The notes beneath the pieces were generated by a model. That model saw only the letters and a program-made list of their open reading frames with translations. It was not told the origin of the DNA and made no database searches. 64,000 nt of DNA from Cloacibacterium rupense. GTDB taxonomy: Bacteria > Bacteroidota > Bacteroidia > Flavobacteriales > Weeksellaceae. Both the position numbers and the translations under genes were made by a program. The stretch spans positions 62,001 through 126,000 of the forward strand of contig NZ_BMLV01000005.1 in assembly GCF_014645495.1 (NCBI RefSeq), in the 5' to 3' direction. Positions 57,639 through 59,811 of the stretch are shown one piece after another. Position 1 is the stretch's first letter; each line of letters opens with the position of its first letter.

Positions 57639-58619
57639 TTATATAAAATTCTCTATTAGATACTTGATGATTTTTTCCGTTTCGTCTGGGAAATCCACTT
57701 TTATATTGTTACCGTTTTCAATCCAGAATTTTAATTTAGAATCAAATTCTTTTTCATCCCAAATCACGGTTGCTCCCATATCTTCTGCTGCCAAAGCATT
57801 ACACTGCTGTTCATACTGATGAAACATAGGCACGCACAATACTTTTTTACCCAAAAACATTGCTTCTGCTGGCCCTTCGAAACCACCACCAGTCAACAAA
57901 CCTTCACTATTGGCAAGAGATTGATTGAATTTTTCGTTATTGATTCTATAAACTACAATATGACTTTTCAAGTAATCTTCTTTGGTATGTTTAGAGAATA
58001 CCTGAAATTTTCGGTCTGGAAATTTTTCTAATTTTTTCAAAATAAATTCATCACTATATGCAGGTAAATAAACAGTGTAATGACCCAAATTTTCAGGAGA
58101 TAAATTTCTAATTTCCGACCTTATCACTGGTGTTTTTATAAAATCATCATACTTTTTAAAATGAAAACCTATTCTGTAAGTTGCTGGCGCATAATTTCTA
58201 AGTATAATTCTACCTAAATGAAATCCAGAAATCACAGGTGTTTTAGGTGATAAAAATGCTGATTGATGACTAAGTGCTACAGACTTTATTTTTCTGAGCT
58301 TACAAGCCCAAGCGGTAACTGGCTCAAAATCATTTATTATTAAATCATAATCTTTTACGGGTAGACTTCTAATATCCTTTATCAATTGCCTAAAGTCGGC
58401 CTTTATGAAACTGCTTTTATAATTGATTCCGCCATTGGTACCAAAATCAAAACCGAAACCCTTAAATTTGTATTTTATTTCTTCATCTAGATTTACATCT
58501 GCCTGAGTTCCGCTAATAAGAATATCTAGCGTTCCGTATTTTTTTAAAATAGGAATAATTTCTCTAGCTCTAGAGACATGCCCATTACCAGTGCCTTGAA
58601 TTGCGTAAAGAATTTTCAT
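57639..58619 (-). CDS. MurG-like glycosyltransferase family protein
   Basis: A 326-residue protein beginning MKILYAIQGTGNGHVSRA, the start of the GT-B MJ1255/VC2487-type family; the C-terminal half has LLTGGGFEGPAEAMFLGKKV, the donor-nucleotide loop, and EQQCNALAAEDMGATVI. The longer frame upstream (19 further codons) lacks homology, so the ATG at 58619 is used. Sugar donor and acceptor unknown; a surface-glycan role is plausible. Follows a candidate small-RNA locus. Confidence 0.82.
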   Translation of the reverse strand: MKILYAIQGTGNGHVSRAREIIPILKKYGTLDILISGTQADVNLDEEIKYKFKGFGFDFGTNGGINYKSSFIKADFRQLIKDIRSLPVKDYDLIINDFEPVTAWACKLRKIKSVALSHQSAFLSPKTPVISGFHLGRIILRNYAPATYRIGFHFKKYDDFIKTPVIRSEIRNLSPENLGHYTVYLPAYSDEFILKKLEKFPDRKFQVFSKHTKEDYLKSHIVVYRINNEKFNQSLANSEGLLTGGGFEGPAEAMFLGKKVLCVPMFHQYEQQCNALAAEDMGATVIWDEKEFDSKLKFWIENGNNIKVDFPDETEKIIKYLIENFI

Positions 58620-58676
58620 AAAAACGAAGTTATCATTATTTCTTTTTGCAAAATCATTATTAAAAAAAATTAACAC

Positions 58677-58707
58677 AAAAAAAAGCGGAAAACTAACTTT
58701 CCGCTTT
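58677..58707 (-). terminator. Terminator of the candidate small RNA
   Basis: AAAGCGGAAA/TTTCCGCTTT stem (loop six bases) followed by TTTTTTTT on the minus strand. No annotated gene ends just upstream of it: the nearest gene already has its own terminator at 58774-58801. Confidence 0.85.
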
Positions 58708-58756
58708 ACTGAATGTAAAAATTAAATTTGATATGAAGAATGTATTATAATTTTTA
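58677..58756 (-). ncRNA. Candidate small RNA between two terminators
   Basis: The stretch between the terminator of the Tyr/Asn/Arg-rich gene and a second terminator at 58677-58707 has no gene. On the minus strand it starts with a TGGCACG-N4-TTTG sigma-54-like element (58756-58770), then an 11-base inverted repeat TGTAAAAATTA (58714-58724 in plus coordinates) / TAATTTTTACA (58748-58758), and ends in the terminator. An RNA of roughly 60-70 bases is predicted. It has no reading frame longer than a few codons. Inference only; a processed 3' UTR is the alternative. Confidence 0.35.
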
Positions 58757-58771
58757 CAAAGAACGTGCCAC
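58756..58771 (-). promoter_or_regulatory. Sigma-54-like promoter element in front of the candidate small RNA
   Basis: GTGGCACGTTCTTTGT on the minus strand resembles the -24/-12 consensus TGGCACG-N4-TTGC; the -24 GG and the CACG are exact, but the -12 GC reads GT. It directly follows the T-run of the preceding terminator. Confidence 0.4.
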
Positions 58772-58773
58772 AA

Positions 58774-58801
58774 TAAAAAAAGGCAGAAAAAAATCTGCCT
58801 T
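58774..58801 (-). terminator. Terminator of the Tyr/Asn/Arg-rich gene
   Basis: AAGGCAGA/TCTGCCTT stem with an A6 loop and a T-run on the minus strand, 36 bases past the stop. Confidence 0.85.
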
Positions 58802-58837: not shown

Positions 58838-59761
58838 TTATCTGAAGCCTCTTCCACCGCTGTTATGATTTTTATCACTTCCGGCAGAACGGTTATGGTC
58901 ACCACCTCGGAAACCTCCGTTATTTTTAGATTCATTATTCCCTCTGTTTACGTCTTCTGTTCTTTTAGGCGCGTCATTTCTAAAACCATTATTTCTTGGT
59001 TGTTCTGGTTTGTTATTACCAAAATCCCTAGGAGAATCTGTTTCGTTTCGGAAACCTCCATTGTTTTGCGGTCTATCATTATCTTTTCTAAAACCACTAA
59101 CGTTATTTTGTGATTGATTATCTCTTCTGAAGCTGTTATTCCCTTTTACAACATTATTATTACCATTAAAACCATCTCTGAAGCTTCCTTTTCTGAAATC
59201 ATCATTTCTAAAAGTTCTTACATCTACATTTCTATATCTAGGGGTAACATAAACTATAGGTCGATAATGCTTAACTCGATAACTTCTATAATAAACAATT
59301 GGATTGTAATTATGGTAATATCTATTGTAAAAACTTACATAAATTCTTGGACCTAGAATTCTTTCAATCGCAATAAATCTATCATAGTACCAACGATCTG
59401 GATTGTATCTATAGTAATTGAACCAAAAATTATAATTAGAAAATCTATTATTCAAAAGCCTTATCTCTCTAATTTGCCAAGGAGAAAGTCTGAATTCTAC
59501 AAAAAGCCTATCCCAATTAATACTTACAATAGCATTTCTATAGTCATTATAATATCCTCTGTAAAAATCACGGGTATAATAATCCTCAGGATATTCGTAG
59601 TAATAATCTTCTGGATAATTATAATCATCATAGTAATATTCATAAGGGTTATTAGAATATTGATTATTACCATAATTGTCATTTGGATAATATTGTGCGT
59701 AAGCCATTCCTGCCAAAGATAAAATAGAAGCAAGAACCATTTTTTTAAATATCGGTTTCAT
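58838..59761 (-). CDS. Tyr/Asn/Arg-rich exported protein with GFR repeats
   Basis: A 307-residue protein with a signal peptide ending MAYAQ. Three parts: a Tyr/Asp/Asn-rich segment (about 23-75), a folded core (about 80-180) including an LTxxQ-like FRLSPWQIREIRLL and later RWYYDRFIAIERILGPRIY, and a disordered Asn/Gly/Arg-rich tail. The tail repeats the GFR unit: SGFRKDN, GGFRNET, NGFRNDA, GGFRGGD and RGFR at the C-terminus. The core suggests a distant Spy-like fold; the rest has no recognised homologue. A sigma-54-like TTGGCACG element lies upstream. Function unknown. Confidence 0.7.
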   Translation of the reverse strand: MKPIFKKMVLASILSLAGMAYAQYYPNDNYGNNQYSNNPYEYYYDDYNYPEDYYYEYPEDYYTRDFYRGYYNDYRNAIVSINWDRLFVEFRLSPWQIREIRLLNNRFSNYNFWFNYYRYNPDRWYYDRFIAIERILGPRIYVSFYNRYYHNYNPIVYYRSYRVKHYRPIVYVTPRYRNVDVRTFRNDDFRKGSFRDGFNGNNNVVKGNNSFRRDNQSQNNVSGFRKDNDRPQNNGGFRNETDSPRDFGNNKPEQPRNNGFRNDAPKRTEDVNRGNNESKNNGGFRGGDHNRSAGSDKNHNSGGRGFR

Positions 59762-59794: not shown

Positions 59795-59811
59795 TAAAAA
59801 TACGTGCCAAA
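59795..59811 (-). promoter_or_regulatory. Sigma-54-like element upstream of the Tyr/Asn/Arg-rich gene
   Basis: TTTGGCACGTATTTTTA on the minus strand: the -24 half TTGGCACG is exact, the -12 half (TTTA) is weak. It lies 33 bases before the ATG at 59761. Confidence 0.35.

Follow-up and report, generated by a model that had tools for sequence, protein, structure and literature searches.

The question raised by this locus is whether two terminators in tandem, with a promoter-like box between them, mark an independent small RNA and, if so, what such an RNA would regulate. The window, i.e., the whole 64,000-nucleotide stretch of DNA that was analyzed, is from Cloacibacterium rupense; its genome is designated G000, the six other genomes of the genus are G001 to G006, and L-numbers denote individual loci. 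Our reading, to which we give a probability of about 0.72, is that the gap encodes a sigma-54-dependent, trans-acting small RNA of ca. 68 nt that blocks the translation of SusC.

Arrangement of the gap

The initial annotation had described two minus-strand terminators around a sigma-54-type box, and this arrangement was confirmed (Table 1). The stem of the first terminator extends from 58801 to 58780, with the end of its T-run near 58774, and is followed by GTGGCACGTTCTTTGT at 58771 to 58756. An AU-rich stretch separates the box from the second terminator, the hairpin of which was the sole structure predicted by folding of the 68-nt RNA of G000. The predicted start at 58744 was counted from the box, the −13 position of which is at 58757.

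Table 1. Features of the gap and of the neighboring genes in the window
Feature	Position	Strand	Basis
Sigma-54-type promoter box TGGCACGTTCTTTG, −26 to −13	58757..58770	−	Motif scan; GGCA-N5-TTTG in 7/7 genus genomes
Predicted small RNA, 68 nt	58677..58744	−	Start by distance from the box, end by the T-run; transcription presumed
Seed TTCTTCATATCAAATTTAATTTTT, 24 nt, complementary to the start region of susC except at one position	58717..58740	−	Complementarity; TCTTCATATCAAATT invariant in 7/7
Stem-loop that would terminate the small RNA, with a T-run reaching 58677	58682..58707	−	Terminator scan and structure prediction
Terminator that ends the upstream 307-aa gene and sets it apart from the small RNA	58774..58801	−	Terminator scan
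Upstream gene for a secreted-looking 307-aa protein, ending at 58838	58838..59761	−	Open reading frame
Downstream glycosyltransferase gene (PF13528), syntenic	57639..58619	−	Profile match and open frames of relatives
Another sigma-54-like box, TGGCACGTATTTTT, ahead of the 307-aa gene	59796..59809	−	Motif scan
11-nt inverted repeat TGTAAAAATTA/TAATTTTTACA, arms 58748–58758 and 58714–58724	58714..58758	−	Not conserved, probably irrelevant

The 307-aa protein had no Pfam or NCBIfam match in a profile search. The 307-aa gene has a sigma-54-like box of its own, and the same motif, TTTGGCACGTATTTTTA, was found upstream of its homologue in the three relatives inspected; co-regulation of this gene with the small RNA is possible. 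Membership of a known RNA family was rejected, since Rfam gave no match at the gathering score in the window and only matches far below that score in 58640 to 58800.

Between 57,000 and 60,500, three terminator-like sites were counted versus 1.5 ± 1.3 in shuffled sequences, and TGGCACGNNNNTTG with at most one mismatch had two sites in the window versus 1.55 expected. Because these counts are close to the shuffle or expected values, neither the terminators nor the box beats chance alone, and the case therefore rests on conservation. The pattern TDGGCACGNNNTTTG, which misses the window's own box, had one site in the genome, while TGGCACGNNNNTT had 15 sites compared with six reversed-control matches; seven of the 15 were judged by reading to stand immediately ahead of a gene start or of the small RNA. 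When one mismatch was allowed, TTCTTCATATCAAAT gave 65 matches in the seven genus genomes versus nine in the control.

Conservation in the genus

A search of 320 family genomes with GGCANNNNNTTTGN{8,30}TTCATATCAA, which combines the box and the seed, gave matches in 10 genomes and none with the reversed control. These comprised all seven genus genomes, at the syntenic place, and three isolated matches among the other 313 genomes. The box, seed, and terminator were located in the same gap in all seven genus genomes, and the terminator hairpin was predicted in each of them. In a blastn search of 40 relatives, all six other genus genomes were matched; the similarity began at 58741 to 58739, adjoining the predicted start, in five of them, and further upstream, at 58780, in G004.

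The gap was flanked by the 307-aa homologue and the glycosyltransferase gene in G001, G004, G005, and G006, whose open frames were listed, and the flanking sequence was alike in G002 and G003. A terminator of different sequence preceded the box in G001, G002, G003, G005, and G006. In G004, an extra 124-aa gene lies ahead of the box, a GC-rich hairpin is not evident there, and the box (GGCATATTGTTTG) has a weak −24 half. In the alignment of the genus genomes, in which the G004 row stops short of the promoter, TCTTCATATCAAATT and TTTTTACATTCA were the longest invariant runs, and the spacer and the hairpin were variable. The strongest conservation falls inside the predicted transcript.

The 11-base inverted repeat that the initial annotation had placed after the box is present in G000, but it was not supported as a part of the RNA, because its left arm precedes the predicted start and the repeat is confined to G000. 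Over the corresponding stretch in G001 to G006, the longest repeats were 9, 7, 7, and 7 nt in four genomes, and the other two had none of at least 7 nt.

Sigma-54, activators, and candidate RNA chaperones

The presence of rpoN and of an enhancer-binding protein had been proposed as a check, and the genome was found to carry both rpoN (one match to PF04552) and four strong activator domains. Eight matches to the activator profile PF00158 were above the cut-off, including these four; they were judged by score only, because the same profile matched all 14 control genomes. The sequence TGGCACGTTCTTTGT at 58770 to 58756 fits the TGGCAC-N5-TTGC type, with a base other than the consensus C after TTTG. 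No primary-sigma −7 box of the form TAnnTTTG was found on the minus strand between 57535 and 59714. The Hfq profile PF17209, which matches five of the 14 control genomes, had no match in G000. A single gene for an RRM_1 protein (L154, a 115-aa open frame) was observed in this genome without an Hfq match, and its product is a candidate RNA chaperone.

Sigma-54-like boxes were also observed 49 to 110 nt upstream of five other genes in G000 (L177, L185, L186, L187, and L188, about position 1500). By reading, these encode a DtxR/MntR-like regulator (229 aa), an acyl-carrier-protein, a 169-aa lipoprotein-like protein, a 243-aa exported-looking protein, and a 204-aa outer-membrane-barrel-like protein. 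A stress regulon is compatible with this set but not established by it.

Complementarity of the seed to the susC start region

The seed is complementary, with one mismatch in 24, to positions −16 to +8 of a gene start region at G000:C5:255307-255330. This gene was identified as SusC/RagA by TIGR04056 (E 2e-139, above the cut-off), and the gene following it is SusD-like (PF12771, E 1.5e-93). The exact 15-nt core was found at the susC start in all seven genus genomes. Since the front of the RNA is complementary to the susC start, it probably switches the transporter off.

When start regions were ranked by duplex energy, susC was first of 411 in a 458-kb sample, which held regions picked for seed matches and in which many open frames are possibly not genes. 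None of 1000 shuffled RNAs equaled the duplex on susC, and two of 100 paired as well with at least one of the 411 starts. The duplex energies of the whole RNA with susC ranged from −29.8 to −40.2 kcal/mol in the seven genus genomes, in five of which a weak 4-bp hairpin was predicted over the beginning of the seed. Weaker candidate targets by duplex energy were a small lipoprotein-like gene (L160) and the starts of two further genes (L169 and L167). The lipoprotein-like gene (MKK..CNTT; about 16671 on the plus strand of L160) is a candidate second target, and its homologues in G002, G003, and G006 (L049, L054, and L055, about 1500) have the 15-nt core, without mismatch, at their start codons.

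A scan of 84,980 species, one genome per species, with the pattern TTCTTCATATCAAATT[N]AATTTTT yielded 60 stretches, in cases several from one and the same genome. Fifty-seven were the starts of MKKLT/MKKIT SusC-like genes (one, L115, was clipped at the locus end), the profile having been run on one SusC and the remaining matches having been judged by their N-termini. The other three were seed-plus-terminator elements (L104, L113, and L120). The titles of the matches named Chryseobacterium, Kaistella, Cloacibacterium (including Cloacibacterium normanense), Elizabethkingia, Halpernia, Planobacterium, and metagenome-assembled genomes called Flavobacteriales or Flavobacteriia; the four names that were checked belong to Weeksellaceae.

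Copies of the seed beside other terminators

Within the genus, the seed was also found between the stop codon and the terminator of a 146-aa gene (4/7 genomes), of a 92-aa gene (5/7), and, with one mismatch, of a GLPGLI gene (2/7). In the family, the pattern TCTTCATATCAAN{9,39}GCYTTTT, in which a shortened seed is followed by a GCYTTTT run, was matched in 47 of 320 genomes, compared with three for the reversed control. This pattern misses the window's own RNA because the terminator is too far from the seed, and G000 and G004 scored 0 with it. By the hairpin criterion, a hairpin was present in 36 of the 47 matches, under five genus labels, and was lacking in 11. Thirty of the 47 were read as loci, together with four of the other 17, and L143 was read too. 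The seed with its hairpin was mostly located 1 to 16 nt past the stop codon of the preceding gene (71 nt in L206), and an open frame runs antisense to one of the counted hairpins (G067, L192). Among the preceding genes are one for a 443-aa astacin-type secreted protease and others for lipoprotein-like proteins of about 405 and 389 aa that had no Pfam match. For the element in L150, the duplex energy with the target in G000 was −35.2.

A sigma-54 box was sought 59 to 300 nt upstream of the genes with a 3′-UTR seed at 20 loci, and none was convincing, one weak match being found in L035. In L034 and L060, a primary-sigma-like TATATTTG is present upstream. Among 12 genomes from 12 other genera, TTCTTCATATCAAA was present in eight, at 12 sites, compared with one for the control; six of the sites were SusC-like starts, one was another gene start, two were before terminators, and three were elsewhere. 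In Chryseobacterium-like genomes, a seed-plus-terminator element was observed after the gene for the ca. 405-aa lipoprotein-like protein (L190, L193 to L195, L197, L201, L204, L205, L209, and L212, about position 1500), and in several of them (e.g., L190 and L195) the frame ahead of this gene ends in ..GYTF or similar, as in outer-membrane barrels.

It is an even chance, in our estimate, that many unrelated loci of Weeksellaceae carry one antisense seed of ca. 14 to 24 nt beside a terminator and aimed at the SusC start codon, comprising, in the Cloacibacterium group, one stand-alone sigma-54 small RNA gene and, in several genera, 3′ UTRs that often belong to secreted-protein genes. They would form an envelope-control network without a recognizable Hfq, in which sigma-54 would take the enterobacterial role of sigma-E.

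Alternative explanations

The RNA could be real and directed at susC and nevertheless originate from a primary-sigma promoter, or from read-through and processing of the 307-aa transcript, with the box being incidental. The near-chance frequency of the box and the seed copies in 3′ UTRs of genes that lack an upstream sigma-54 box agree with such an origin. On the other hand, the box is at the right distance in all seven genomes, an independent terminator lies ahead of it in six, and TAnnTTTG is absent nearby on the minus strand, and we consider this origin unlikely. It is quite improbable that the glycosyltransferase gene downstream is transcribed from the sigma-54 promoter, with the second hairpin as an attenuator in its leader. 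That gene is on the same strand and starts at 58619, ca. 125 nt past the predicted start, but a leader leaves unexplained both the susC-complementary seed and its copies beside the terminators of unrelated genes.

Because the seed holds one orientation relative to transcription, antisense at gene starts and sense just before terminators, there is little likelihood that it is a DNA-level element (an operator or promoter part) common to susC and the seed loci. Some susC variants do carry TAAATTTG, by eye a possible −7 box, whereas the commoner ones have TTAATTTG. The initial annotation had itself raised the alternative that the second hairpin is a mere back-up terminator of the 307-aa gene and that no small RNA exists. 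The two terminators in tandem speak for this alternative; however, it fails to explain a seed complementary to the susC start, the box and the seed are conserved, and the invariant part is the unstructured seed rather than the hairpin. We find this alternative scarcely credible. An independent RNA of ca. 65 to 70 nt from a sigma-54-type promoter, as initially proposed, is the best reading in view of the architecture common to the seven genomes, the conservation inside the transcript, the presence of rpoN and activators, and the lack of TAnnTTTG nearby. The seed, its target, and the related elements at other loci had escaped the initial annotation.

Discussion

In the mechanism that we infer for this small RNA, RNA polymerase with sigma-54, turned on by an enhancer-binding activator, would start near 58744 and stop at the hairpin whose T-run reaches 58677. 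The 5′ part, which is mostly unstructured and contains the 24-nt seed, would pair in the cell with the susC mRNA from −16 to +8 and block ribosome loading on susC, the first gene of the susC-susD pair. The trigger may be envelope or protein stress, to judge from the genes under sigma-54-type promoters in Flavobacterium psychrophilum. Based on this analogy and that with FopS of Bacteroides, the likeliest function appears to be the repression of SusC synthesis upon sigma-54 activation, perhaps by envelope or protein stress.

In enterobacteria, the stress sigma factor sigma-E makes RybB and MicA, small RNAs that repress outer-membrane protein synthesis near the start codon and use Hfq. The RNA predicted here likewise has an outer-membrane protein mRNA as its predicted target, that of a SusC by TIGR04056, but it has a sigma-54-type box, and its genome has no Hfq match. 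GlmY, Qrr, and CrcZ are small RNAs driven by sigma-54 promoters, and their targets, structures, and cofactors are different. The mode of action would resemble that of FopS and perhaps also that of RybB and MicA.

According to the account of FopS, a family of paralogous small RNAs of Bacteroides thetaiotaomicron, these RNAs are ca. 65 to 70 nt long and pair through a 5′ seed near the start codons of susC homologues, with a translation block shown in vitro (PMC11697453). The same text describes several loci with a common seed, one of them 3′-UTR-derived, and primary-sigma (sigma-ABfr) promoters and a response to bile salts (PMC11697453). Compared by these descriptions, FopS and the RNA of the window are alike in length, in a 5′ seed at the susC start (in silico here), and in a seed common to several loci, and they differ in the primary-sigma promoters of FopS versus the sigma-54-type box. 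FopS is bound by RbpB, an RRM protein, and G000 has one gene for an RRM_1 protein.

In the portion of the F. psychrophilum study available, the selected sigma-54-type (SM4) promoters drive genes for chaperones, for proteases, and for envelope and gliding functions, as well as one putative small RNA, Rfp36 (PMC9723704). Rfp36 resembles the RNA described here as a putative regulatory RNA listed under such a promoter in a flavobacterium. Rfp18, a small RNA conserved in flavobacteria and predicted to pair with mRNAs, differs in pairing via its third stem-loop and affecting metalloprotease mRNAs, and it is not among the selected SM4 promoters given there (PMC9723704). A literature search, with preprints and most subscription papers outside its scope, found no published account of the present RNA or of a SusC-directed small RNA in Weeksellaceae.

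The control of SusC porins by small RNAs is already known in Bacteroides from FopS. The present results suggest an equivalent in a different class of the phylum, linked to sigma-54 and recurring in the 3′ UTRs of other genes, and its one leading predicted target is open to direct testing. If this is true, sigma-54 in flavobacteria would gain a repressive arm on the outer membrane.
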